A stretch of 32,877 nt of DNA from the NCBI GenBank assembly GCA_022772735.1, contig JALEZD010000013.1, positions 1 to 32,877 of the forward strand. Reading direction: 5' to 3'. Origin of the DNA: Erysipelotrichaceae bacterium (GTDB lineage: Bacteria; Bacillota_I; Bacilli_A; Erysipelotrichales; Erysipelotrichaceae). The notes below the pieces were generated by a model, which was not told where the DNA came from, did not search any database, and was given only the letters and a program-made list of their open reading frames with translations. Made by a program: the position numbers and the translations under genes. Positions within the stretch are counted from its first letter, which is position 1. Every line of letters begins with the position of its first letter. Below, piece after piece: positions 10,244-29,293 of the stretch.

Positions 10244-11156
10244 AGTCTTTAATATAGTGATATGCGTTTTGACCTGCAATTGCTCCATCACTTGTTGCAG
10301 TTACAATTTGGCGTAACTCTTTTCTATTGCAATCTCCTGCACTAAAAATCCCAGGAACCTTAGTTTCCATTTTTTCATTTACCAAGATATAACCATTTTC
10401 ATCAGTTATATTTAAATCACTTACAAATGATGTGTTAGGAATTGAGCCTATATAAGGGAAAATTCCATCAACATTAAGTTTTGTTATTTCTTTTGTATCA
10501 ACATTTTCAATAACTAACCCATCAACTTTTTTATCTCCAGTAATCTCTACAGGTATATGTTTTTTTATTATTTCAATTTTTGGATGATTTAAAACTTTGT
10601 TTTGCACAATTTCTTCAGCTCTAAACACATCTCTTCTAATTATTATGTAAAGTTTATTTACACCTTCTGCAAGATATAGAGCTTCTTCAAGTGCACTATT
10701 ACCACCACCAATTACTGCAACATCCTTACCTTTAAAAAATGTTGCATCACATACTGCACAATAAGATACACCTCTACTTGCAAGTTCTAACTCTCCTGGA
10801 ATATTTAATAATCTTTCTTTTGTTCCTGTCGCAATTATTACTGCTTTAGCCTCGTATTCATTACCATCAGCACACTTTATTTTTTTATACTCACCATCAG
10901 TTATATTAACAACATCCCCATATAGATAAGATACATTAAGATTTTGAGTATGTTCAAACATTTTCATAGATAAATCTGCACCATTAACTTCTGAATAACT
11001 TGGATAGTTTTGTATATCAAATGTTTTTACCATTTTCCCGCCAGGTGCCATAGATTCTAACATCGCAACATTTAAACCAGCTCTTTTAGCATAAATTGCT
11101 GCAGTCATACCTGCAGGACCTGCACCAATTACTATTACATCATATCTGTTGTCCAT
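10242..11156 (-). CDS. trxB: Thioredoxin-disulfide reductase
   Basis: Transfers electrons from NADPH through FAD to thioredoxin. The FAD motif GAGPAGMTAA lies at about residues 11-20. The redox pair C133-AV-C136 sits in SYCAVCDATFF, and the NADPH motif GGGNSALEEA (150-159) is followed by the basic RRDVFRA. At 304 residues the length is normal for the low-molecular-weight type. Its start lies 22 bases inside the end of the lgt-ppaX gene, with AAGGAG about 11 bases before the ATG, so it is translated with that operon. It is the likely reductant source, through thioredoxin, for the peroxidase at the right end of the window (inference). Confidence 0.96.
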   Translation of the reverse strand: MDNRYDVIVIGAGPAGMTAAIYAKRAGLNVAMLESMAPGGKMVKTFDIQNYPSYSEVNGADLSMKMFEHTQNLNVSYLYGDVVNITDGEYKKIKCADGNEYEAKAVIIATGTKERLLNIPGELELASRGVSYCAVCDATFFKGKDVAVIGGGNSALEEALYLAEGVNKLYIIIRRDVFRAEEIVQNKVLNHPKIEIIKKHIPVEITGDKKVDGLVIENVDTKEITKLNVDGIFPYIGSIPNTSFVSDLNITDENGYILVNEKMETKVPGIFSAGDCNRKELRQIVTATSDGAIAGQNAYHYIKD

Positions 11157-12592
11157 GATAATTTATTCTCCTTTATAATCTGTTTAACCTCTATCAAATC
11201 ACTAATTAGTTTATTCGGTTTGCTGTTTCGTAAAGACATTTCTCTATCTTTTGAAAATAAATAACCAATAGTATAAACCCCTGCATTTTTACCAGCACTT
11301 ATATCAGTTGAACTATCGCCAATATATATGCACTCATCGTGTCCTTCATTTAATAACTTACAGGCTTTTAATATTCCCTCTGGATCTGGCTTAGGTTTTT
11401 TTGCATCATCAAGACCAATAATCACATCAAACATTTCTTCCATTTGAAACATATTTAAACCAAATTTTACACCTTCATTTAATTTTGAAGAAACTATTCC
11501 TAATTTATATCCTTCAGACTTTAAATAACTAACTAGTTCTTTTGAGTTTACCATTAGATTAACATATTCTTTGTGTGCTTTAAAATTATATGCTTTATAC
11601 TCCTCAATCAGTTCATCAACATTTCTTTCTGGGAAATATTTTTCAAACATTTCTTTTAATGGTGGTCCTAAAACTTCCACTTGTTTTTGTTTGTCAAATT
11701 CTTCAACATTACGATACTTTTCAAATAAATATTTATATGTTTGTATAATCGCAGGAGCGCTATCAATTAAAGTACCATCTAAATCAAAAAGTATAACTGG
11801 TTTTTTCTTTTTAATAAATATTTCAAACACACCAAAAATTCCTACTAACCCTACCACAATAAATAATATAGAGATTACTTGGGCCATTCTTAATCCCAAA
11901 AACATCAAACTATCAGTTCTAAATCCTTCAACAATAAATCTAGTAATACCATACCATATCAAATAGATATATATCATATCACCTCTTTTATTACGGTTAA
12001 ATTTCTTATAAACATAATTAATCAAAATAAAACCTAAAATATTTAGTGAACTTTCCCATAAAAATGTTGGTTGTCTATACGCATTATCAATATACATTCC
12101 ATCTTTGATAAATTTTGGAAAATTATTATAAAAACTTTCACTTACTATGTTTCCATAAGCTTCTTTATTAATAAAATTACCCCATCTACCAATCGCTTGT
12201 GCAATAAGTATATTAGGTACAATCGCATCAGCCATTCTTAAAAAGCTCATTTTATTTTTCTTAGTATAGTAGTATCCATATAGTGCACCACCAAAAAGTC
12301 CACCTTGAATCGCAAGACCTCCTTCAAAAATATACAAGAATTTAATTGGATTAGATAAATAATAATCAGGATATGAAAATAAACAATACCAAATCCTTGC
12401 ACCAACAATACCGAATAAAAAACAACCAAAAAACAAATCATCAACTACATTACTTGAATATCCGTTCTTTTTTAGATTTTTAACAGAAAATATATACGCA
12501 ACAAGTGCACCACTGAGCATTGTTATTGCATACCATTTTATTGATAAAACTCCAAAAGAAACAAAAGTAGTACTATCTGGAAAAAATACCAT
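11135..12592 (-). CDS. lgt-ppaX: Fusion of prolipoprotein diacylglyceryl transferase (Lgt) and PpaX-type HAD phosphatase
   Basis: Residues 1 to about 262 are Lgt, the membrane enzyme that attaches diacylglycerol to the lipobox cysteine of prolipoproteins: several membrane helices, the family signature GRWGNFINKEAYG (about 135-147), RQPTFLWE and VEGFRTDSL with the conserved arginine. After a short lysine-rich linker (KKKK, 261-264) comes a complete HAD hydrolase: motif I DLDGT (270-274), motif II in IVSSK, motif III region KKPKPDP, and motif IV GDSSTDI. This matches PpaX, the pyrophosphatase that removes the PPi made by HPr kinase/phosphorylase. In Bacillus the order is hprK-lgt-(yvoD)-ppaX as separate genes; here the two are one frame of 485 codons with no stop between them. 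The start is coupled to hprK through TAATG. Position 96 is Gln (GGLAIQGG), where E. coli Lgt has His103. Confidence 0.92.
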   Translation of the reverse strand: MVFFPDSTTFVSFGVLSIKWYAITMLSGALVAYIFSVKNLKKNGYSSNVVDDLFFGCFLFGIVGARIWYCLFSYPDYYLSNPIKFLYIFEGGLAIQGGLFGGALYGYYYTKKNKMSFLRMADAIVPNILIAQAIGRWGNFINKEAYGNIVSESFYNNFPKFIKDGMYIDNAYRQPTFLWESSLNILGFILINYVYKKFNRNKRGDMIYIYLIWYGITRFIVEGFRTDSLMFLGLRMAQVISILFIVVGLVGIFGVFEIFIKKKKPVILFDLDGTLIDSAPAIIQTYKYLFEKYRNVEEFDKQKQVEVLGPPLKEMFEKYFPERNVDELIEEYKAYNFKAHKEYVNLMVNSKELVSYLKSEGYKLGIVSSKLNEGVKFGLNMFQMEEMFDVIIGLDDAKKPKPDPEGILKACKLLNEGHDECIYIGDSSTDISAGKNAGVYTIGYLFSKDREMSLRNSKPNKLISDLIEVKQIIKENKLSWTTDMM

Positions 12593-18369: not shown

Positions 18370-19920
18370 CTAATTATTTTTAAGTGTATCCCTCATGCTT
18401 TTTCTTAAGCTCTTCCCCACGATTGTACTTGCTGCACCAAACTGTATTGCAAATCCTGCCCTTGTTTCAATTACCTTAGTGGCACCTAGTTGTAACAATT
18501 TACCTGCATCAAGATGTGATGAGTCAAAAAGTTGAATTGTCAATTTATTTATTGAAGTATTAATCATCTTTATATTTGATGTTCCACCAATAGCTTCAAG
18601 TATTCCATCTGTAAGTCGTTTGGTTGTACCTGTATTAAATAAATCAACCGCAAGCTGTCTAAAATAAAATCTTGTAAAAACAAAATATAATATCCCCGTA
18701 ATAACCCCAACAATTACAACCATTCGTATTGAATTAGATAAACTACTTACTCTTAAATAGGTAATAAGCTCAATAATTGTCCCCGGCATTGCAACAACAG
18801 TACTTGTACCATTGTAATTAAAACCTAACGAAATACCCAATACTTGAAAAATCGCAAACAAACTCCCACTAACAAACACATGGAAAAAATAAAGCAATGG
18901 ACAAAGTATTATTAAAAGTAATTCCAAAGGAAGTAGTGTACCAAAAATCATTGATATAATAGTTGAAATCACAAAAAACATGAATAATCTTCTTTTTTCA
19001 AATTTATCGGTATAAATTGTATATATTGCCCAAATCATTGAAGGAACTGCAAATATATTCAATACATAATAAGGAGTAATAAATCTACCTACATTAGTTT
19101 GTAAGGTATTTGATGCAATAGATGTTGTCCATATACTTACATCACCCGCAATACTTTCTCCAACTATGTTACTCCAAGTTCCTCCTGCAGCTTGAAACCA
19201 AAATGGATTTCTAATTAAATTCGCAAGATGGAATGTTGATAAAATCCTATCAAATATTCCATAAACAAATAAACTAATTGGATTTGTAATGTCACTGGAA
19301 ATAAACTTTATTATTTCACTTAAAAAGTTGTTGTAAATATATGAATATCCTAATGAAGCTAAAATTCCTGCAAGTATACAATAAAAGATATTCAAAATAA
19401 CTGCATGTGTGTCTTTATCAATAAACCCCAAGAAACCATATTGAGATTTATTTCTTGATTGAGAAAAAGATATTCTTGTTAGAAAAACTACAATTAAAGC
19501 ACCTATAAGACCTGTTTGTAGTGGATAATTAACTCCTGAAAGGCGTAATATATTACTCGATGTAAAATTTATTCCAAAAATAGACGCAAAAGCTGAAGAT
19601 GGTAATGTTTTATCCGCAAAAAACAAAGTCATTGATAAAAAACTTATATATCCAATAAATCCAGACATTGTAGTTACGGCACCATTCACTCTTCGATTTA
19701 CGCTTCTTAAAAGAACAATAAAAGGCATATATGCGATTATCAAACTACCTATTCTCATAAAAAGTTCTGCAAATAATATAACAACTTCATTTTTTATCAC
19801 AAAAAGTGACGAAAAAGCTTGATTAACCAATATATTACCAATTCCATAAAGTACAATACCCAACATGATTACTTTTAAAGGAAATTGTAAAATTTCTAAA
19901 AAGGATCTCCATAATTTCAT
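18370..19920 (-). CDS. Degenerate PTS EIICB-like membrane protein (glucose superfamily) lacking the phosphorylation cysteine
   Basis: 516 residues with about ten membrane helices, then a C-terminal EIIB-like domain (about 433-505). EIIB features remain (ILEAIGGTSNI, KLLQLGATKVIE, AIQFGAAS), but the signature C-x-T-R-L-R, seen as CITRLR in the neighbouring EIICB, reads S456-I-N-K-L-T here, so no cysteine can be phosphorylated. In the EIIC part, the T-E-P-L-E-F sugar motif is L-L-P-L-E-L (329-334), losing the first glutamate, and F-G-L-H-H is F-H-L-A-N (230-234). The frame is intact and the ribosome site (GAGGTAG) is good, so this looks like a retained, re-purposed protein rather than a pseudogene. 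It is the middle gene of nadK - this gene - VanY carboxypeptidase (gaps of 18 and 11 bases). It could be a sensor, scaffold or non-PTS transporter. Confidence 0.75.
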   Translation of the reverse strand: MKLWRSFLEILQFPLKVIMLGIVLYGIGNILVNQAFSSLFVIKNEVVILFAELFMRIGSLIIAYMPFIVLLRSVNRRVNGAVTTMSGFIGYISFLSMTLFFADKTLPSSAFASIFGINFTSSNILRLSGVNYPLQTGLIGALIVVFLTRISFSQSRNKSQYGFLGFIDKDTHAVILNIFYCILAGILASLGYSYIYNNFLSEIIKFISSDITNPISLFVYGIFDRILSTFHLANLIRNPFWFQAAGGTWSNIVGESIAGDVSIWTTSIASNTLQTNVGRFITPYYVLNIFAVPSMIWAIYTIYTDKFEKRRLFMFFVISTIISMIFGTLLPLELLLIILCPLLYFFHVFVSGSLFAIFQVLGISLGFNYNGTSTVVAMPGTIIELITYLRVSSLSNSIRMVVIVGVITGILYFVFTRFYFRQLAVDLFNTGTTKRLTDGILEAIGGTSNIKMINTSINKLTIQLFDSSHLDAGKLLQLGATKVIETRAGFAIQFGAASTIVGKSLRKSMRDTLKNN

Positions 19921-19938: not shown

Positions 19939-20712
19939 TTAAAATAAACTTTGTAATTTTTTAAAATAAGATATTTCTCTAAATCTTAACATATTAATCT
20001 TTTTATCACATAATTTTACTGTAATAACTTTGTTTCCATCAAGTTTTGTATGATATGCATCATGGCACAATATAGCACCATTAAAATCACTAGATTTAAA
20101 AGTTATAATAGAGTTTTCACTCATAACTATTGGTACTCCAAGTGATCTATACGAACTATGATGTATCCCCGCAATTTCACTCATTTGTATTAAAGGTAAT
20201 CCTTCTTGTATTACAGCACCATTTAATGATCTATTATATGCACTACTTCCAATTTGAGTACATACGCACATACCAGTACCTCTAAAAGTTTCAAACTCTA
20301 AACCATTTACTGTTATATCTAGCACTTGAGTCTTAAGAGAGTTTTCTATTCTCATTTCGTTAACCGCATAATATTTTTTTTCTTTATCAACTTCTACTTC
20401 TAAAAGTTGATATTTTACAATTTTTTTTGTTTTATTTAAAAAATCATCTAAAAACTCATCAAGTTCATCAGATTTATAATCAGTAAAAAAACCTAGTGTT
20501 CCTGTGTGTATACCATAAAAATATGTTGTATCCAAATTCTCAATATTTTCGTGAACTGCCTTTAAAAATGTTCCATCTCCACCAATTACTATTACATATT
20601 CAGGTTTTTCATCTAAATATTCAAATCCGTTATCAATTAATACTTTTTTAATTTTTTTATCTAAATCTTTTGATATGTCATCATATCTTACTATTGTCTT
20701 AAAAGTTTTCAT
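19939..20712 (-). CDS. nadK: NAD kinase
   Basis: Makes NADP from NAD. 257 residues. The GGDGT motif (VIVIGGDGTFLKA) is in the N-terminal half, and the NE motif AVNEMRIE and the glycine-rich TGMCVCTQIGSSAYNRS follow in the C-terminal all-beta domain. The ATG is the only possible start: an in-frame TAA lies two codons upstream. There is no Shine-Dalgarno; instead TATAAT ends 6 bases before the ATG, as in a leaderless transcript. First gene of the operon with the degenerate EIICB and the VanY carboxypeptidase. The divergent CYTH neighbour matches the yjbK-yjbN(nadK) linkage of Bacillus. Confidence 0.95.
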   Translation of the reverse strand: MKTFKTIVRYDDISKDLDKKIKKVLIDNGFEYLDEKPEYVIVIGGDGTFLKAVHENIENLDTTYFYGIHTGTLGFFTDYKSDELDEFLDDFLNKTKKIVKYQLLEVEVDKEKKYYAVNEMRIENSLKTQVLDITVNGLEFETFRGTGMCVCTQIGSSAYNRSLNGAVIQEGLPLIQMSEIAGIHHSSYRSLGVPIVMSENSIITFKSSDFNGAILCHDAYHTKLDGNKVITVKLCDKKINMLRFREISYFKKLQSLF

Positions 20713-20718
20713 ATTTTA

Positions 20719-20747
20719 ATTATAACTTAGTTTTTCTAATTAATCAT
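20719..20747 (-). promoter_or_regulatory. Putative leaderless promoter of nadK
   Basis: Minus-strand TATAAT at 20724-20719 is followed by TAAAAT and the ATG at 20712, placing the expected +1 on the start codon. The -35 at the right distance (ATGATT, 20747-20742) matches only 3 of 6 bases. No ribosome site is present. Confidence 0.55.
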
Positions 20748-20783
20748 TAAAGTTGTGGTAATATGAATTAAAGAGGTGTGTTT

Positions 20784-21332
20784 ATGTTTGCAGGAAAAAT
20801 AGAAAAAGAATATAAAATGATGCTTACAAAAAAACAATTTGATACTATTAAAAAACATTATTTATTTGATAAAACAAATACTCAAATAAATCATTATTTT
20901 AATTCTGTAAATAATTTTAAAAAAAACTATGCATTGAGGATAAGAGAATTAAATAACACATTTATATTCACCCTTAAAATGAATAATGAAAATGGGAAAT
21001 TAGAATATGAATTTGAAATAGATAATTTAGATATCAATCACAACAAAATAAAAAGTTTATTAAAAGAGCTAAATATTGATGATGAATTTTATCCAATTGG
21101 CACTATGAAAACCATACGACATATTTTAAATGATGAATTTGGTGAGTTGTGTTTGGATGAAAATCACTACTTTGATAAAGTTGACTATGAAATAGAATAT
21201 GAACTTTTTGATTATACCCAAGATAAACTAGAACACTTTAAAAACATTTTAAAAACATTTGATATTGAATTTGTTTTAAATAAAAAAAGTAAATTAAAAA
21301 GATTTAAAGACGAATTAAATAAAGTTGGTTAA
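20784..21332 (+). CDS. CYTH-domain protein (YjbK-like)
   Basis: CYTH/triphosphate tunnel proteins bind or hydrolyse organic triphosphates with a ring of charged residues. The defining E-x-E-x-K motif is near the N-terminus (EKEYK), and later conserved pieces are visible: HYFNS, ALRIRE, FTLKMN, and the acidic EYEFEID and DYEIEYEL strands. 182 residues from ATG 20784, which has AGAGGTG 5 bases upstream; a GTG at 20778 lies within that site and is rejected. In Bacillus, yjbK is near nadK and the small (p)ppGpp synthetase yjbM; here nadK is divergent 71 bases away and the synthetase is absent. The substrate (thiamine triphosphate, polyphosphate or other) cannot be told from sequence. Confidence 0.85.
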   Translation: MFAGKIEKEYKMMLTKKQFDTIKKHYLFDKTNTQINHYFNSVNNFKKNYALRIRELNNTFIFTLKMNNENGKLEYEFEIDNLDINHNKIKSLLKELNIDDEFYPIGTMKTIRHILNDEFGELCLDENHYFDKVDYEIEYELFDYTQDKLEHFKNILKTFDIEFVLNKKSKLKRFKDELNKVG

Positions 21333-21335
21333 AAT

Positions 21336-22703
21336 ATGAATAACATTTCTGAAATCTATAAAAAATGGATAAACAATCAAAATTTTAAAGATATACAAAC
21401 TATAAATGAACCAAATAAAATATATTTTAAACACGGGCTAATAGAAGGTTGTGTAGAATTTTATAGTTTAAAAAAAGAAATAGTTGAATTAAAAATTGTA
21501 AACCTAACAAATAATGAAAATAAATTCTTTTTACACTTTGAGTTAAATAATATTGAGCGTGCAAAAGAATTGTTTACTGAAATGATTGAATGTTTATTGG
21601 ATTTAAAAAACAACAATAAAACAAAAGTTCTTATATGTTGTACAAGTGGTATTACTTCAAGTTATTTTTGTGAAAAACTAAATGAATACTCCAAAAAAGA
21701 AAATATTACATTTGAATTTTATGCAAGTAATTATTCAGAAATTTACTCTAAAGGAATTGATTTTGAATATATCTTGCTTACACCACAAATAAAACATCAA
21801 TCAGATGAAATAAAAAATATTTTTAAAGATAAAATCGTAGAAGATATACCTGTAAAAACCTTTGCGACTTATGACATTTTTAAAATTTTTGAGTTACTAT
21901 CCAAAACTAAAAATAGTAATGTAACATACTCACCAAAAAGAGTTAATAAACCTTTAAAACTTGGTACTTACCTTGTAATTTGTATAATACACTATTATCA
22001 AAACTTTAAAATAGTTTACTCTATATATAATCAATGTGAAAAAATAAATCAAGGAGAGATATTAAAAAATAAATATTCTTTGAAAGATATTGAAGATTTT
22101 TTAGACTATGCATCATTCTCATTCCCAAATATTGAAAAAATTTATATTTGTACGCCAGGTATGATAAACAATAATTTGTTAAGTTTTCCATTTTTTAATA
22201 TTTATGATCAAGATTTAGTAGAAAACTTTTCAAAAAAATACAATAAACAATTTTATTTATGTAATGATGCAAATGCACTCGCAAGAGGATATTTTGAAGA
22301 ATATAAAAATATTGATAACTTTATACTATATTATTCTCCACTAGCAAGTAGAGTTGGTGGCGCTGGAATAATTATCGACAACAAGTTATACAACGGTAAT
22401 AATGGGCTTGCAGGTGAAGTACAGTTTTATCAAAAATTACTCATCTTTTCAGATGATGTAAATACTCTTTCAAAAACAATTGAAGGACAAATAGAATTAT
22501 GCTACAAACAATTACTTATATTAATATCTTGTTTTTCACCAGATAAAATTGCTTTATGTTGTCCAATGATTACTGATTTATCAAAAGTAAAACAAAACTT
22601 ACAAAAATATATACCAAATAGGTTTATACCACAAATTATTAAAGTTGATGAAGATATTGAAACTATGGTTTATGGTGCGATATTACTCGCAAATGAAACT
22701 TAG
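21336..22703 (+). CDS. Fusion protein: N-terminal domain + PTS EIIB (lactose/cellobiose type) + degenerate ROK-family domain
   Basis: 455 residues in three parts. Residues 1-95 are an unrecognised alpha/beta domain (KIYFKHGLIEGCVEFY). Residues about 96-190 fit an EIIB of the lactose/cellobiose type: KVLICCTSGITSSY, with C102 at the phosphorylation position, then YILLTPQIKHQSDEIK. Residues about 206-455 fit a ROK sugar kinase/regulator: ICTPG, CNDANALARGYFEE (D311, the catalytic-base position), GGAGIIIDNKLYNGNNGLAGE (E361). The N-terminal ATP loop DxGGT is missing (LGTYLVICIIHYYQNF instead), the second phosphate loop is altered (SPLASRVGGAG), the sugar histidine after GE is lost (GEVQF), and the ROK zinc cysteines are absent. 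So EIIB looks active while ROK looks like a non-catalytic ligand-binding domain. It starts 4 bases after the CYTH gene and ends overlapping the stop of the convergent MFS gene. No matching EIIA or EIIC of the lactose family is in the window. Confidence 0.75.
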   Translation: MNNISEIYKKWINNQNFKDIQTINEPNKIYFKHGLIEGCVEFYSLKKEIVELKIVNLTNNENKFFLHFELNNIERAKELFTEMIECLLDLKNNNKTKVLICCTSGITSSYFCEKLNEYSKKENITFEFYASNYSEIYSKGIDFEYILLTPQIKHQSDEIKNIFKDKIVEDIPVKTFATYDIFKIFELLSKTKNSNVTYSPKRVNKPLKLGTYLVICIIHYYQNFKIVYSIYNQCEKINQGEILKNKYSLKDIEDFLDYASFSFPNIEKIYICTPGMINNNLLSFPFFNIYDQDLVENFSKKYNKQFYLCNDANALARGYFEEYKNIDNFILYYSPLASRVGGAGIIIDNKLYNGNNGLAGEVQFYQKLLIFSDDVNTLSKTIEGQIELCYKQLLILISCFSPDKIALCCPMITDLSKVKQNLQKYIPNRFIPQIIKVDEDIETMVYGAILLANET

Positions 22704-22711
22704 TTTCTTTT
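22695..22711 (+). terminator. Weak terminator-like hairpin over two convergent stop codons
   Basis: GAAAC-TTA-GTTTC-TTTTT: a 5-base-pair stem that contains the stop codons of the EIIB-ROK gene (+) and the MFS gene (-), followed by a T-run on the plus strand. Short, so only a possible terminator. Confidence 0.4.
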
Positions 22712-23839
22712 TATATTTACAACTACAAATAGCCCTAATCCAACAAATATTGTTGAAATTAAAAACGGAAAAATATTATTAAACGCAAATAAATAGCTTG
22801 ATAATATTGCACCAAAAATCATTGCGATTGATCTTACACTATTTTGTAGCCCTAACGCTATTGATTGTTCTTCTTTAATTGTGTTTTTAATACATGTACT
22901 TTGTAAAATAGGTAAATGTATAGTATCTATAACCATTATTAGTATACCTAAAACAATAAATAACATATTTATATTAGAAACATTGATAAATAATAAATAC
23001 ATAATAAATAAAATTAAAATATAAAATTTTATCCACTTAAATATATTTTTTGAATTTTGAATTTTTAATGTGAAACTAAAATTTATGGCTATTGATAAAA
23101 TACCAACTATTCCCTTTATTAAACCATTAATGGTAGGAGTAACATTTAAAACATTGATTAAGTAATACGCAAACATTTGCGTTAATGAAGTGGATGAAAC
23201 AAATAAACAAAATGTCAGTAACATTACAGAAATTTGTATTCTGTTTAACTTTATTCCTAAATCAAATAATTTTTTTGTTACAAGTTTATCGTTATTAACT
23301 TTTACATCAACAATAAAAAACAAAATAAATGCTGCCACAAAATATATTAAAGATTGTAAGGCTACAGGCAAATATATATTAATTCCACCTAAAAAACCCC
23401 CAAAAAAATATCCAACTGTTCCTCCAACTGTAAAAAAAGTTGATAACTTCGTAATATAACTTGATTTTTCGTTTTCATCACTAATCAAAGCAAAATAGTA
23501 TGGCATACCAATAAATACACCTGCAATAAACATACCTGAGATTGCTCTACTTAAAAGCATTACATAAACATTATTACCTATCAAAAACAAAAATTGACCA
23601 AACGCATATCCCATACAACATACAATAAAAATTAAATTGATTTTTATTTTATTTAACTTTTTTGCCCAAAAGAAAGAAAATAGAAAGTTGAATAAAGACA
23701 TCATTGAAAATGCTAAACCAAATAATGTACTTTCAAATCCTCTTATATTAAATAATGTTGGAGTTATTGGATGAGCTAAATTAGCAGCTAAACCTAATAT
23801 TCCATATACAAACAAAATAAATTTTTTACTATTTTTCAT
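22700..23839 (-). CDS. MFS-family transporter
   Basis: 379 residues with about 12 hydrophobic segments and a mostly basic cytoplasmic loop after helix 2 (FWAKKLNKIKIN), typical of the major facilitator superfamily; GMFIAGVFIGMPYYFA and TVGGTVGYFFGG are typical glycine-rich helices. The start is taken as ATG 23839, which has TAGGGG 5-6 bases upstream; an ATG at 23854 has no ribosome site. Last gene of the alpha-glycoside operon, separated from EIIA by a strong hairpin. It could export sugars or take up a related glycan; the substrate cannot be read from the sequence. Confidence 0.8.
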   Translation of the reverse strand: MKNSKKFILFVYGILGLAANLAHPITPTLFNIRGFESTLFGLAFSMMSLFNFLFSFFWAKKLNKIKINLIFIVCCMGYAFGQFLFLIGNNVYVMLLSRAISGMFIAGVFIGMPYYFALISDENEKSSYITKLSTFFTVGGTVGYFFGGFLGGINIYLPVALQSLIYFVAAFILFFIVDVKVNNDKLVTKKLFDLGIKLNRIQISVMLLTFCLFVSSTSLTQMFAYYLINVLNVTPTINGLIKGIVGILSIAINFSFTLKIQNSKNIFKWIKFYILILFIMYLLFINVSNINMLFIVLGILIMVIDTIHLPILQSTCIKNTIKEEQSIALGLQNSVRSIAMIFGAILSSYLFAFNNIFPFLISTIFVGLGLFVVVNIKRN

Positions 23840-23858
23840 ACTGCCCCTAATCATAAAG

Positions 23859-23886
23859 TTAGGAAATTACAAATGTAATTTCCTAA
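23859..23886 (-). other. Perfect 13-base-pair intercistronic hairpin between EIIA and MFS genes
   Basis: TTAGGAAATTACA (23859-23871) and TGTAATTTCCTAA (23874-23886) are exact complements. The EIIA stop codon lies in one arm, and the MFS ribosome site follows about 10 bases after the other. There is no T-run behind it on the minus strand (CTTTATG), so it is not a classic terminator; it may stabilise upstream mRNA ends or lower MFS expression. Confidence 0.75.
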
Positions 23887-24368
23887 ACCTTTATCGCAAA
23901 AATATTACCTTCTTTTTCTTTAAGAATCAAATCTTTTTTTATCATTACAAACTTTCTTCCTCTTAAATTTGTAACTAATATCATTGTTGTCATATCAACA
24001 TTATTACTTTTGAAAAAATCATGATTAACTTCTAATAGTAGTTGACCTTTTTTTACATTATCACCGATTTTAACATGGGGAACAAAGCCTTTTCCTTCAT
24101 ATTTTATAGTGTCTAATCCTACATGTATTAAATATTCATTTCTATCGACTGCTTTAATACCAATCGCATGATTAGTAGGAAACAAAGCAACTATTTCCCC
24201 ATCAACCGGTGAAAAAACATTGCCATTTAAAAATTTCACTGCAAATCCATCACCCATACTTCTAGATGAAAATACTGGATCACTGACCTTATCTAAATCA
24301 ATAATTTCTCCAGATATAGGTGAAATAAAATCTATAGGTTTTGGCTTAAAAATATTAAACATCTTCAA
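23883..24368 (-). CDS. PTS EIIA component, glucose type
   Basis: Soluble phosphocarrier passing phosphate from HPr to EIIB. 161 residues with the EIIA(Glc) fold markers: DFISPISGEII, SPVDGEIV, auxiliary His67 in NHAIGI and the phosphorylated His82 in LIHVGLDTI, then VKIGDNVKKGQLLLEV. It is a stand-alone protein; in many alpha-glucoside permeases EIIA is fused to EIICB. The start chosen is TTG 24368, with AAGG 7 bases upstream; an ATG two codons later (24362) is also possible. The gene overlaps nagA by 14 bases. Confidence 0.93.
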   Translation of the reverse strand: MKMFNIFKPKPIDFISPISGEIIDLDKVSDPVFSSRSMGDGFAVKFLNGNVFSPVDGEIVALFPTNHAIGIKAVDRNEYLIHVGLDTIKYEGKGFVPHVKIGDNVKKGQLLLEVNHDFFKSNNVDMTTMILVTNLRGRKFVMIKKDLILKEKEGNIFAIKV

Positions 24369-25551
24369 AACATTTCCTTCCCATACAATATGTTACTTTT
24401 AAATTAAAATCTTTATCAACCACTAATATATCCGCATCTTTTCCTTTTTCAAGTGAGCCTTTTTTATCAAAGACACCAATATATTTAGCACTATTTTCAG
24501 ATGTCATTTTTATAATGTCATGAACACTTGGATTAACATTGTTTTTTAAATTTTGAATTGACCTAATATAACTTAACTCTAAATCTTTAATATCATCATA
24601 ATTTGTTCTATCAAAAACTTTTTCACTTCCATCCTCGTTTCTAATGATAAATTTATCACCATCAGGAATAAAATATTGTTTTCTAACATAATGATATCTT
24701 TCTTTTTCTATCTGTGAAATTCCAGCATTATCTGTAGTCATAATTATTCTGTTTGCACCTTTTAATTTGTATGCAATTTGAAACGCTTCTTTTTTTACTG
24801 TAATTCCTGTTTGTTTGGCAAATTCACAATATAGATCATCAAAATATAATGCACTACCTGCAACACCTAACTCTCTATGGTGAAACCCACTCATTCCACT
24901 AAACATATGTGTAACACCATTTACACCTAATTCTTTAAGTTTTTTAATAGTTTCAAATGTTGCACAAGAATGACCAATGCTTATTTGTATATTATTTTTA
25001 TTACAATATTTTATGACCTCAGCTGCACCTTCTAATTCTATTGCCATAGTCATTAACTTAATAGAATTCATAACATTTTGAGAATCTACTAATTTCTTCA
25101 TTACATCAACAGAAGGTTTTAAAAAGTTATTAACATTCATCATCCCTTTATTACTTTCATTAACAAATGGACCTTCTAAATGAATTCCTAATAATGTAGA
25201 ACCTTCTTTTTGATTGTTCATAACATTTCCAACAGAATTAATACCTTTTATGAGTTCATCAATAGGTTCAGCACCTGTTGTAGCCAAAAAACTTGTAACA
25301 CCAGCTTTTGGAAGATGTTTTTTCATTTCATATAATTGTTTTTCATCTCTACTACTTACAAAACTACCTGTTCCCCATCCATGTAAGTGCTGATCAATAA
25401 ATCCTGGAATTATTAAATAATCTGAATAATCAACATAATCATTTGTATTTACTGAATCTACAATATCATCAATTATTCCATTATTAATTATTAAATAGCC
25501 TTCTTTTTTTACTTGATTGGGTAAATAAATATTTTTAGAATAAATTATCAT
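24355..25551 (-). CDS. nagA: N-acetylglucosamine-6-phosphate deacetylase-like amidohydrolase
   Basis: Removes acetyl from GlcNAc-6-phosphate to give glucosamine-6-phosphate. 398 residues with the family metal and catalytic motifs: PGFIDQHLHG (H55, H57), GIHLEGPF (E126), SIGHSCA (H194), GVTHMFSGM (H215) and the catalytic Asp274 in TTDNAG. It differs from standard NagA: TTDNAG replaces the usual TDAM/TDAT, and the conserved (L)xGSxLTM segment is replaced by a longer polar stretch (FDRTNYDDIKDLELSYIRS). The substrate may therefore be a variant amino-sugar phosphate. It lies 4 bases after the EIICB gene and overlaps EIIA. No nagB (deaminase) is in the window. Confidence 0.85.
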   Translation of the reverse strand: MIIYSKNIYLPNQVKKEGYLIINNGIIDDIVDSVNTNDYVDYSDYLIIPGFIDQHLHGWGTGSFVSSRDEKQLYEMKKHLPKAGVTSFLATTGAEPIDELIKGINSVGNVMNNQKEGSTLLGIHLEGPFVNESNKGMMNVNNFLKPSVDVMKKLVDSQNVMNSIKLMTMAIELEGAAEVIKYCNKNNIQISIGHSCATFETIKKLKELGVNGVTHMFSGMSGFHHRELGVAGSALYFDDLYCEFAKQTGITVKKEAFQIAYKLKGANRIIMTTDNAGISQIEKERYHYVRKQYFIPDGDKFIIRNEDGSEKVFDRTNYDDIKDLELSYIRSIQNLKNNVNPSVHDIIKMTSENSAKYIGVFDKKGSLEKGKDADILVVDKDFNLKVTYCMGRKCFEDV

Positions 25552-25555
25552 TTAA

Positions 25556-27109
25556 TTATCCTTTCATTTTATCATCAACTGCATTTCTTACAAATTCAAC
25601 AAGTGGACCATATACTACATGTATGTGATTTGAAGATGGGAAAAACACACCTGAACATCCTGAATCTTTTAAAAGCTTATTATCAATTTTATTTTTATCT
25701 TTAAAATCAACTCTTAATCTTGTAATACAATTCTCAACAGAAACAATATTATCTTTTCCACCTAAACCTTCAATAACTAAATCTGCAATTTCATCAAATC
25801 TTTTTTCTTTAATTAATATATTGTCACTTGATGCATCTTCTTCTCTTCCAGGAGTAGGAACATTAAATTTTACAATATACCACTTAAATAAATAGTAAAT
25901 TATTATAGCTTCAATAACTCCAACAATAACTATATTTATCCAATTGGAATTTTTATACATTACTCCAAAAATTATAAAATCAAATATTGTACCTCTTATA
26001 TATCCTACAGCTGTTCCCATAAAATGTAATGCAATACCACCGATTGCTCCAATTATTGCATACAAACCATATAATACTGGTGCAATAAATAAGAATGTAA
26101 ATTCTAATGGCTCTGTAACATTACCGAAAAAAGCAGTAGCAATACTTGCGATTATTAACCCTTTAGCGATTGCTTTATTTTCATTATAGGCTGTTTTATA
26201 CATTGCAAGTCCAATTGCAGGGAAAACAAATAATGCTCGTACCATTTGGTTTTGTGCACCAAATCTTGTAAGTTCAGGCATTAATTTCCAATATTCACTA
26301 TCTGGTCCAAGTTTAAATAAAATTTCATTCATTGCATCTAAATATCCGATATATTGTGTTCCATTTATTGTATATACTCCACCGGCTTCGGTAAATCTTA
26401 ACATCGCATTCCAAACATGATGTAATCCAAATGGTATCAATAATCTATTTACAACACCATTCAATATTTGTCCAATAATTGGACTCAATAATAAACCTGA
26501 CATACTTGAAAATAACGCAATTAAATATTGCCAGAAAAATGGTATAACCAAACCTAAACAAACACAGGCAAACATAGTTATTAAAGGAACTGATTTTCTT
26601 CCTGCAAAAAAAGCAAATGCAATTGGAAGCTGCAAATTATAAAATTTATCAGTTGCGATTGCCGCAAATAACCCTGCAAGTATTCCACCAAAAACGTTAA
26701 CATTTACAGTTTGAATACCAAGAACCATACTTTGCCCTGCGACAGCTATATTCCCCTCTTTAATAAGTAATCCTGTATTACTTAGATAAACATTCATTAC
26801 AATTAATAGTGTTAAATATCCAAGTACTGATGAAAAAACTGCAATACCTTTGTCTTTTTTAGACATTCCATATGCAACACCCATCGCAAATAGTAAAGGT
26901 AAATTCCCAAATATAACATCACTTACTTTTCTAATACCTAAAAAAACCTGATTAATAAAAGGATTTCCCAAAAAAGGTAGTAACTCTATCATGTATTTTT
27001 GAGAAAATGCTCCTGAAATACCTAATAAAAACCCAACTGGTGCCATCACTCCTATAGGTAATAAAAGCGATCTACCAAACCTTTGAATGCTTTCACTATA
27101 CTTTTTCAT
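25556..27109 (-). CDS. PTS EIICB permease, alpha-glucoside/GlcNAc group of the glucose superfamily
   Basis: Imports and phosphorylates a sugar. 517 residues: an EIIC membrane domain (to about 415) with the signatures IPFGLHHVWN (HH at 230-231) and VTEPLEF (331-337, E333), a linker KFNVPTPGREED, and an EIIB domain with GLGGKDNI and ENCITRLRV (C461 phosphorylated). The KFN-x-x-TPGRE linker and the partner GH4 enzyme resemble MalP/GlvC-type alpha-glucoside permeases. It needs a separate EIIA, which is encoded two genes downstream. The start overlaps the GH4 stop as TAATG, with AAGGAG inside GH4. The precise sugar is inferred only from the neighbours. Confidence 0.9.
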   Translation of the reverse strand: MKKYSESIQRFGRSLLLPIGVMAPVGFLLGISGAFSQKYMIELLPFLGNPFINQVFLGIRKVSDVIFGNLPLLFAMGVAYGMSKKDKGIAVFSSVLGYLTLLIVMNVYLSNTGLLIKEGNIAVAGQSMVLGIQTVNVNVFGGILAGLFAAIATDKFYNLQLPIAFAFFAGRKSVPLITMFACVCLGLVIPFFWQYLIALFSSMSGLLLSPIIGQILNGVVNRLLIPFGLHHVWNAMLRFTEAGGVYTINGTQYIGYLDAMNEILFKLGPDSEYWKLMPELTRFGAQNQMVRALFVFPAIGLAMYKTAYNENKAIAKGLIIASIATAFFGNVTEPLEFTFLFIAPVLYGLYAIIGAIGGIALHFMGTAVGYIRGTIFDFIIFGVMYKNSNWINIVIVGVIEAIIIYYLFKWYIVKFNVPTPGREEDASSDNILIKEKRFDEIADLVIEGLGGKDNIVSVENCITRLRVDFKDKNKIDNKLLKDSGCSGVFFPSSNHIHVVYGPLVEFVRNAVDDKMKG

Positions 27110-28437
27110 TATTTTATCTCCTTATTATGTTTTTTTAATGTCCAATACCCCTTATTCACATCAATTAAATCGTCTAAAACTTTTTTTGCAATTTGTGGAT
27201 CTATTATTGTTCTATTTAGTGTTAAAGCTTCAATAGCTTTATCATAATCTTCTTCCAAACATGCCTCAACGGTTAATTTTTCATACGCATGTTGGTTTTC
27301 CATCAACCCCTTATAAAAAGGTTTGATTTCACCATATTTTTCAACAATCACACCATCTTTTCCAAGTTTACCGACAAGTTCAACAATTGCATCATTTGAA
27401 AAATTTGTAATTAAGTTATTATTTCTTGTCATTATTACAAATTCATCTTTTAAATCATATAAAATTGATCTTGCGACTTCTACCATTAAATTTCCAAAAA
27501 CTGAACCTTTTAAAATTGTTGAATTTTCATATGTTGCATTTTCACACATTTCAAATACTTCTTTTTCTCTGCTATCTCTTGCCTCATCTGCCCTTGTATA
27601 TTCTGGATTACTTTCACCTACAATTTCATTAGGGAAAAAATAATATTGTAAATATGTGTTAGGTAAATATTCTGGAAAAAATGATAAATATTTATTTACC
27701 CTTTTATATGTTTCTAACCATGATGTAGATCTTTGTTCAGCATTATAAGGTTTAAAATCATTATTTTTTAAATAATCTTTTAAACTATTTAAATAACTTT
27801 TTCCATTTTTATCATAAATGTCTGTGAACCACCCAAAATGATTTAATCCAAAATATTTACATGATAATTCACTTTGTTTTAAATTCAAAATTTTTGCATA
27901 TGATCGCATCATGGAATACGGTTGATCACATAAGTTGAGTATACGTTTATCATTTGGAAACACTTTATCTAAAGCTAAGGCAACAATTGCTGCAGGATTT
28001 GTATAATTTAAAATCCATGCATTTGTATTTATATTTCTTATGTCATTAACCATTTCTATCATTGCCTTAATAGATCTCATCCCATACGCAAAACCACCTG
28101 GACCACATGTTTCTTGACCAACAACCCCATATTTAAGAGGTATTTTTTCATCAAGACTTCTCATTTCAATGTTTCCTGCTCTCATTTGCACTAATACTGC
28201 ATCACAATTTTCATATGCGATTTTTTTATCTGTTGTAAAAATAACTTCTAGTTCAGGAAGCTCCTTTTGTAAAACAATTCTTATATAATTTTCCATTTTT
28301 GACATTCTGTTATTATCTATATCAAAGAAAATTAATTTTTTTAATAAGAAACTGTCTTTGTAGTCAATAATAGAGCCTACTAGTGCAGGTGTTCTGGAGC
28401 TTCCTGCACCAACAACTGTAATGTTTAACCCTTTCAT
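27109..28437 (-). CDS. GH4 family 6-phospho-alpha-glucosidase (GlvA/MalH-like)
   Basis: GH4 enzymes split phosphorylated disaccharides by an NAD- and metal-dependent redox mechanism. 442 residues. NAD loop VVGAGSSRTPALVG (about 8-21), family-typical IPLKYGVVGQETCGPGG (99-115), metal-binding Cys170 and catalytic Asp171 in LNLCDQP, metal-binding His200 in LNHFGW, and LPNTYLQYYFFP. These segments follow the maltose-6'-phosphate hydrolase GlvA of Bacillus closely as recalled from memory, which points to alpha-6-phosphoglycosides rather than the beta-type (LicH, CelF) branch. First gene of the sugar operon. With NagA downstream, the substrate may be an alpha-linked N-acetylglucosaminide (inference). 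Confidence 0.92.
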   Translation of the reverse strand: MKGLNITVVGAGSSRTPALVGSIIDYKDSFLLKKLIFFDIDNNRMSKMENYIRIVLQKELPELEVIFTTDKKIAYENCDAVLVQMRAGNIEMRSLDEKIPLKYGVVGQETCGPGGFAYGMRSIKAMIEMVNDIRNINTNAWILNYTNPAAIVALALDKVFPNDKRILNLCDQPYSMMRSYAKILNLKQSELSCKYFGLNHFGWFTDIYDKNGKSYLNSLKDYLKNNDFKPYNAEQRSTSWLETYKRVNKYLSFFPEYLPNTYLQYYFFPNEIVGESNPEYTRADEARDSREKEVFEMCENATYENSTILKGSVFGNLMVEVARSILYDLKDEFVIMTRNNNLITNFSNDAIVELVGKLGKDGVIVEKYGEIKPFYKGLMENQHAYEKLTVEACLEEDYDKAIEALTLNRTIIDPQIAKKVLDDLIDVNKGYWTLKKHNKEIK

Positions 28438-28461
28438 AACTCACCGTCCTTTGTTAAGTAA

Positions 28462-28491
28462 ATTATATTTTTTAACATTATAGCTAGGCAA
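28462..28491 (-). promoter_or_regulatory. Putative promoter region of the GH4-EIICB-nagA-EIIA-MFS operon
   Basis: Minus-strand TTGCCT (28491-28486), an 18-base spacer and TATAAT (28467-28462). A second TATAAT (28482-28477) lies inside the spacer with no good -35. The AAAGGACGGTGAG ribosome site follows. No obvious cre (CcpA) box was found. Confidence 0.55.
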
Positions 28492-28523
28492 TGTAAAGCT
28501 AATTTCCTTGAAAAAAAATAAAA

Positions 28524-28550
28524 ACTTAGGTAACCAATTCTTACCTAAGT
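28524..28550 (-). terminator. Intrinsic terminator of the rpiR-family regulator gene
   Basis: A 10-base-pair stem ACTTAGGTAA/TTACCTAAGT with a 7-base loop, followed on the minus strand by TTTTTATTTTTTTT. It begins 2 bases after the stop codon and isolates the regulator from the sugar operon. Confidence 0.93.
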
Positions 28551-28552
28551 AA

Positions 28553-29293
28553 CTATATAATTTTTTTATTTTCAAACAAATTTTTTATTGAATCAAATAA
28601 AAGCTCTATTAAAATAAATATTCCAATTCTAGAATTATCATCATTATCACTTGTATCAAAAGAATCAGACGCAACATATAAATTAATATCTGAAAGCTTT
28701 GCGAGTGAATTATGAGTAAATGATGTAATTGATATTATTTTAGCTTGCCTTGATTTAACAATTTTTGCAGTTTCTAAAATTTTTGCAGTTTCTCCTGATA
28801 GAGATATTAAAACAAACAGCTCTCTTTTATCAACTTTTTTTGCAGCGAGTGTTAAAAGATTATAATCATCAATTAAAATGCACTTAATTCCAATTATCAA
28901 AAGTAATCTGCTTAAATGTAATGCACAAGTTTTTGAAGTTCCCCTAGCTGCAATATAAACAGTATTCGCATTAATTATTTTTTTTGATGCAGATTTAATT
29001 GTTTCAGTATTTATTAAGTTTTTATTCATTTCTATTATTTTAAAAATATCTGATTTATTTTTATTACTTTTTTTTGAATTATCATTATTTTTTAAATAAT
29101 ACTTAAGTTCAACAAAACCTGCAAAACCTAGCTTTTTTGACATATTAATAACTACGGTTTTAGAAGTAAACATTTTTTTTGCAAGTTCATTAATATTTAT
29201 ATCTTTTATTTCATCAATATTTTCAAATATATAATTACAAACTCTTTTTTCCGCTTCAGTAAGTAAATCATATTTTGCAATTATTTTATCCAT
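28553..29293 (-). CDS. RpiR-family transcriptional regulator (HTH + SIS domain)
   Basis: 246 residues. The N-terminal HTH_6 domain (about 1-75) shows LTEAEKRVCNYIF and ININELAKKMFTSKTVV, then KKLGFAGFVELKYYLK. A SIS sugar-phosphate-binding domain follows (about 95-230), with VYIAARGTSK and the LISLSGETAKILETAK phosphosugar loop. Such proteins repress or activate sugar operons in response to a sugar phosphate. It lies directly upstream of the GH4-EIICB operon in the same direction but is separated by a strong terminator, so it is the likely local regulator. AGGAGA precedes the ATG. It may be co-transcribed with the DUF2500-like gene 33 bases upstream. Confidence 0.92.
   Translation of the reverse strand: MDKIIAKYDLLTEAEKRVCNYIFENIDEIKDININELAKKMFTSKTVVINMSKKLGFAGFVELKYYLKNNDNSKKSNKNKSDIFKIIEMNKNLINTETIKSASKKIINANTVYIAARGTSKTCALHLSRLLLIIGIKCILIDDYNLLTLAAKKVDKRELFVLISLSGETAKILETAKIVKSRQAKIISITSFTHNSLAKLSDINLYVASDSFDTSDNDDNSRIGIFILIELLFDSIKNLFENKKII

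Follow-up and report, generated by a model that had tools for sequence, protein, structure and literature searches.

We found that a single gene of an Erysipelotrichaceae bacterium encodes a 455-amino acid protein in which a PTS EIIB domain of the lactose/cellobiose type is joined to a conserved N-terminal domain (N-domain) and to a ROK domain that has lost its kinase motifs. The gene covers positions 21336..22703 on the + strand of the window, by which we mean the whole 32,877-nucleotide stretch of DNA that was analysed. The domain architecture, the lack of catalytic motifs and the ancestry of the protein are demonstrated or have good support. Its best reading would be a sensor of PTS state and of a bound sugar that acts through a partner, and a member of the fusion family is probably a cytosolic nutrient sensor. 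We consider it fairly probable that the fusion is a soluble, PTS-coupled regulator with a non-kinase ROK cleft, which acts via a protein partner and stems from a single fusion. We see roughly even chances for a wider proposal, in which the fusion would be a new type of PTS output device: a soluble protein that lacks a DNA-binding domain, reads EIIB phosphorylation and a dead ROK sugar pocket jointly, signals to other proteins and derives from a two-gene system of N-domain-EIIB and HTH-ROK proteins.

Domain architecture of the fusion protein

The frame runs from ATG to TAG with 0 internal stops; the opposite strand has stops throughout. The protein consists of the N-domain (residues 1-93; 21336..21614, +), the EIIB domain (residues 95-196; 21618..21923, +) and, after a short linker, the ROK domain (residues 210-455; 21963..22700, +). 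Against curated Pfam cut-offs of 22.9 bits for ROK and 23.6 bits for PTS_IIB, it scores 53.9 bits (E 2.6e-14, residues 250-362) and 33.7 bits (E 6e-8, residues 97-181), respectively, and both models were matched by 11/11 members of the initial homologue alignment. The full-length AlphaFold2 model, for which 70 homologues served as input, has a mean pLDDT of 90.5 and a pTM of 0.82, with low confidence in the linker around residues 196-199. A sequence-only reading of the window had already proposed a single intact frame with an unassigned N-terminal part, a lactose/cellobiose-type EIIB domain with the phosphorylation cysteine C102 and a ROK fold, and the frame and the Pfam matches bear this out. 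It had also proposed structure prediction against EIIB and ROK proteins, with the lack of an EIIB or ROK fold as the outcome that would speak against it; both folds were predicted with confidence.

The predicted EIIB part superimposes on IIB-chitobiose (2wy2; Z 17.6, rmsd 1.5 A over 102 residues) and also matches the EIIB of the cellobiose PTS. C102 (codon 21639-21641), the phospho-acceptor predicted by EIIB homology, is located in the loop CCTSGITSS, and this cysteine is kept in 112/112 proteins (70/70 fused and 42/42 with EIIB only). The Pro-Gln motif formed by P150 and Q151 is equally invariant (70/70 fused, 42/42 EIIB-only). As both the active loop and the PQ motif are typical, the protein could also serve an EIIC transporter as an accessory EIIB subunit, in which case the ROK part would adjust uptake and not transcription; in addition, N-domain-EIIB genes at times adjoin Lac/Cel EIIB genes (L176, L182). 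However, the transporter-subunit model TIGR00853 gives the fusion protein 46.3 bits, far below its cut-off of 110, EIIC genes are not enriched near family members, and the split version described below couples the N-domain-EIIB protein to an HTH-ROK regulator. We regard this alternative as unlikely.

Residues 1-93 gave no significant Pfam match. Modelled alone with AF2, the N-domain reaches a pLDDT of 93.4 and is predicted to adopt an alpha-beta5-alpha fold, which carries a conserved E51 and a histidine, H67 (codon 21534-21536), that is invariant in the 70 fused and 42 EIIB-only proteins (112/112). Its closest structural likeness is the TriTu immunity protein 7zhm_C (Z 9.5, 2.2 A over 79 residues). 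A TriTu-like or frataxin-like fold is thus possible for the N-domain. Homology to the TriTu immunity proteins was set aside as doubtful, since the likeness is one of fold only and the sequence support is unconvincing (Foldseek E 0.31; the TriTu profile matches 3/70 members, best E 0.0057). In phylum- and family-wide searches, nearly all frames bearing the N-domain were either ~430-500 aa long, with EIIB and ROK, or ~200-250 aa, with EIIB.

The Pfam scan of the fusion protein revealed no HTH and no PRD domain, which are features of PRD/EIIB regulators. An HTH concealed in the linker was excluded as well, because the spacer between EIIB and ROK (residues 188-212 of the query) measures 25-37 residues across 70 homologues and leaves no space for an HTH between the folds. 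The absence of an HTH, earlier claimed for this one protein, therefore holds family-wide.

Loss of kinase motifs in the ROK domain

The predicted structure of the ROK part matches the ManNAc kinase 6jdc (Z 22.5 over 233 residues), and the ROK repressors Lmo0178 and Mlc match as well. The sequence-only reading had described the DxGGT loop and the zinc cysteines as lost and GTGIG and GExGH as altered, and this turned out to be a feature of the entire family: the motifs DxGGT, GTGIG, GExGH and CxCG occur in 0/83 fused ROK domains. DxGGT is also absent from 8 split and 17 HTH-ROK domains; as a control for the motif scan, the ROK kinase L003 of the same genome, part of the outgroup set, shows it. 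A ROK kinase with a relocated ATP loop was ruled out, as DxGGT is found nowhere in any ROK domain of the fused, split and HTH-ROK set. Homologues that keep DxGGT intact, which had been named as evidence against the reading, were not found.

The fusion protein contains N310-D311-A-N and E361 (codons of D311 and E361 at 22266-22268 and 22416-22418, respectively), so that D311 and E361 are indeed retained here, as had been claimed. N310 and E361, which occupy positions in ROK sugar-contact motifs, are kept in 67/70 fused proteins. The weight placed on D311 found no support, since the catalytic-base position (NDxN) is an Asp in only 39/70 and an Asn in 29/70 fused proteins (~40% Asn). In PsNagK, a D6N/A substitution of the metal-coordinating Asp or a D105N substitution of the base reduces activity at least 1000-fold (PMC10031466). 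The lack of the kinase motifs in 83/83 domains, the Asn in 29/70 and the PsNagK mutants together speak against the ROK part being a kinase of the ordinary ATP-dependent kind, and such an activity is very unlikely.

One might speculate instead that the protein is an ATP-independent sugar phosphotransferase, in which the EIIB Cys-P donates its phosphate to a cytosolic sugar in the ROK cleft, as a soluble substitute for EIIC. The loops that bind the ATP phosphates are gone, yet N310 and E361 are kept, the fusion protein studied here has the catalytic-base Asp as well, and the EIIB cysteine is invariant. We nevertheless consider this idea highly improbable: the base is an Asn in those 29/70 proteins, the equivalent of a change that abolishes the activity of PsNagK, and the closest non-fused relatives are HTH-bearing regulators and not kinases.

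Distribution, split relatives and ancestry

In total, 83 distinct ROK domains with the N-domain-EIIB-ROK architecture were collected. The dN/dS ratio between close pairs lies between 0.01 and 0.16 in each of the three parts, indicating strong purifying selection. Residues C102, H67, L66, F68, P150, Q151, P172, G275, G360 and G447 are invariant in 70 fused proteins. The 42 N-domain-EIIB proteins likewise keep the Cys and the His without exception, together with E51, P150 and Q151. Full-length homologues are present in 9/146 genomes of Erysipelotrichaceae, the source genome counted, and in many records that bear the labels Erysipelotrichaceae, Solobacterium, Thomasclavelia, Massilimicrobiota, Selenomonadaceae and Hungatella; Thomasclavelia, like Eggerthia, belongs to the Coprobacillaceae. 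Phylum-wide, 18/392 genomes encode N-domain proteins, all of them within two families of one order. A gut lineage, the Coprobacillaceae, which is the second of these families, appears to possess a PTS-sensing layer of which we found no description in the open-licence literature, as N-domain-EIIB proteins were found in 43/43 of its genomes that were searched, with up to 10 matches each. The fusion family had no match among plasmids or phages, and an origin of the gene from either was dropped.

Two further observations concern individual loci. On a contig labelled Selenomonadaceae, an N-domain-EIIB gene is followed by two full fusions in tandem (L075:7995-11428), and copies whose contigs bear the labels Selenomonadaceae, Selenomonas and Veillonellaceae group together within the fused clade, a clustering that suggests, on sequence grounds, lateral transfer of these copies. 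At L182:5955-7360 (-), an N-domain-EIIB frame is followed by a second one that retains just the C-terminal part of ROK, and the locus looks like a broken fusion gene.

We also discovered split versions of the fusion in seven Coprobacillaceae genomes (L177, L191, L207, L238, L239, L240, L241). At these loci, a separate ROK gene is located directly downstream of the N-domain-EIIB gene on the same strand, at distances of -29 to +3 nt as measured with mechanically called start codons. The split ROK proteins are 309-337 aa long and have the same degenerate motifs as the fused ROK domains. Five of them (L177, L207, L238, L240, L241) carry an N-terminal winged HTH, with scores beyond the Pfam cut-off for L207 and L238. 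For L191 and L239, it is doubtful whether the N-terminal region forms an HTH. The NagC model aligns over residues 3-236 of the L177 protein and over residues 30-233 of the L238 protein. That the N-domain-EIIB gene of these relatives immediately precedes a gene for a NagC-like HTH-ROK protein strengthens the reading of the fusion as a sensor.

HTH-ROK relatives are present in many Coprobacillaceae genomes, and further ones lack an EIIB neighbour. The gene that follows the latter is often of the PHP type, judged by the start of its sequence, and such a gene lies close behind a degenerate-subfamily HTH-ROK gene in L223, L225, L226, L228, L233, L234, L236, L237 and L242. The PHP-type protein, which starts with IDLHMHSxYSDDGE(F/Y) and was assigned as a phosphoesterase by motif, forms a recurrent two-gene unit with the HTH-ROK gene.

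Known ROK proteins form dimers. It is therefore conceivable that the fusion, as a ROK protein without an HTH, forms mixed oligomers with HTH-ROK repressors and titrates or co-controls them. Such relatives are encoded in many Coprobacillaceae genomes, as described above, and NagK is an example of a ROK dimer (PMC10031466). However, the source genome has the fusion and no HTH-ROK repressor; the only other ROK matches in it are two proteins of ~300 aa. This makes mixed oligomers a quite improbable explanation.

For 109 ROK domains, a maximum-likelihood tree obtained with a quick search and rooted on two distant, long-branched outgroups places 83/83 fused domains beyond one branch (SH-aLRT 99), with one change between the HTH-bearing and the fused state. 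A chance fusion or frame artefact was ruled out, as the 83 fused ROK domains form a single clade and are under purifying selection. Since the fused proteins are one clade, the fusions most likely arose once, when a PTS module was joined to a ROK repressor whose DNA-binding domain was lost. The direction of change, that is fusion together with loss of the HTH, and the order of these events are what we infer from a quick tree with distant outgroups.

Gene neighbourhood, proposed mechanism and related systems

A CYTH-domain gene (20778..21332, +; Pfam CYTH 1.5e-16) lies 3 nt upstream of the fusion gene in the same direction and is possibly co-transcribed with it. Downstream follows a convergent MFS transporter gene (22700..23854, -; Pfam MFS_1), which forms the end of a PTS/NagA cluster (22700-29293). 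The stop ends of the fusion and MFS genes overlap by 4 nt, so the tail-to-tail arrangement with a sugar operon, described earlier, is real in this genome; it is absent at other homologues and finds no support as a clue to function. The CYTH, MFS and NagA/PTS genes were rejected as operon partners, as they are not conserved beside the fusion elsewhere, and a survey of the neighbourhoods of this architecture, proposed earlier as a check, revealed no conserved operon around the fused genes. A scan of positions 20600-23000 found promoter-like sites no more often than in shuffled sequences and 0 terminators.

Two other genes of the window deserve mention. A 516-aa protein encoded at 18370-19920 (-) matches glucose-type PTS EIIBC (TIGR02002, E 8e-39), and its EIIB motif reads NTSINKL versus NCITRLR in the intact EIIBC encoded at 25556-27109, a change of the phosphorylation Cys to Ser; to judge by this motif, the product is a PTS-derived membrane protein that may have dropped out of phosphotransfer. 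At 11135-12592 (-), a single frame of 485 aa appears, by eye, to combine an Lgt-like membrane part with a HAD-hydrolase-like domain.

We compared the genes at most two positions away from family members with genes further off, pooling fused and EIIB-only loci and treating loci as independent though they are related. GH1 genes showed no enrichment. RpiR-type genes are moderately enriched close by (4.7% versus 1.7%, p 0.003, pooled); for fused genes alone, this enrichment is weak (p 0.08). Among the pooled, related loci, the same holds for metallophosphoesterase genes (2.7% versus 0.3%, p 0.0004) and maltose-acetyltransferase-like genes (1.6% versus 0, p 0.001). In L059, L062, L105 and L113, the gene order is metallophosphoesterase, degenerate RpiR-like protein and fusion, where the metallophosphoesterase of L059 matches Pfam Metallophos and the RpiR-like group has weak SIS/HTH_6 matches. 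In L197, L203, L208 and L210, the N-domain-EIIB gene is divergent from a metallophosphoesterase and RpiR-type pair, and the surrounding genes are alike in several of the genomes. In L186, L198, L202, L209 and L182, the N-domain-EIIB gene overlaps or abuts a maltose-acetyltransferase-like gene, whose product in L209 matches Pfam Mac and Hexapep.

The source genome encodes two EIIA-Lac proteins and six RpiR-type regulators. EIIA-Lac was found in 9/9 sampled fusion-bearing genomes; its co-occurrence with the fusion is consistent with a functional link and not decisive, as EIIA-Lac is common in the family (106/146 genomes).

The phosphorylation, ligand binding, protein partner and regulatory output that we infer for the fusion protein could be connected as follows. 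A NagC-like ROK repressor would have lost its HTH, and its effector half would have been joined to an N-domain-EIIB protein. An EIIA of the Lac/Cel type, such as the two encoded elsewhere in the genome, would charge and discharge Cys102, whose phosphorylation state would serve as a readout of PTS flux. The ROK cleft would hold a sugar or sugar phosphate without ATP-dependent phosphorylation. The combined state could then alter how the fusion binds a protein partner; the most plausible candidate is an RpiR-type HTH regulator, which would stand in for the lost DNA-binding domain. RNA, suggested earlier as another target, is not supported by anything in our analysis.

The PTS controls transcription through PRD regulators, EIIA-Glc, HPr/CcpA and the sequestration of Mlc, which is controlled by the EIIB of EIICB(Glc). 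Glc-type and Lac/Cel-type EIIB domains belong to different fold families. We found no paper describing an EIIB-ROK fusion in the open-licence literature, which is weak evidence of novelty, and the N-domain-EIIB-ROK proteins constitute a large, conserved and apparently undescribed family in gut bacteria. They share the ROK fold with NagC, Mlc and XylR; NagC is the top ROK-type NCBIfam model for the fusion protein, and the split relatives align to it from the HTH region on. In contrast to these regulators, the fusion lacks the HTH and the zinc motif, and the N-domain-EIIB part occupies the place of the HTH. The ROK sugar kinases NagK and NanK likewise share the overall fold (Z 22.5), whereas the fusion family lacks the ATP-loop and zinc motifs and does not conserve the catalytic base. 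On the EIIB side, the chitobiose/cellobiose EIIB ChbB resembles the fusion in its Cys loop, its PQI motif and its fold (Z 17.6, 1.5 A); unlike ChbB, the fusion is not a stand-alone transporter subunit and carries the additional conserved N-domain and ROK domain. The PRD regulators MtlR and the AtxA/Mga group have, as the fusion does, a cysteine-bearing EIIB-like module that is linked to the PTS (PMC8560693). However, they combine HTH, PRD and a Gat-type EIIB, while the fusion has neither HTH nor PRD and adds a ROK domain. A system of similar logic, notably to that of the split pairs, is Mlc in E. coli, a ROK regulator governed by a PTS EIIB (Mlc/EIIB complex, 3bp8), although this is a likeness of working and not of membership: Mlc meets a Glc-type EIIB in trans, whereas the fusion family has a Lac/Cel-type EIIB, either fused to the ROK part or encoded by the adjacent gene. 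A single polypeptide unites an EIIB domain and the ROK fold, partners that meet in trans in the control of Mlc, and as relatives have a two-gene version, the split pairs offer a ready test of communication between an EIIB domain and a ROK regulator.
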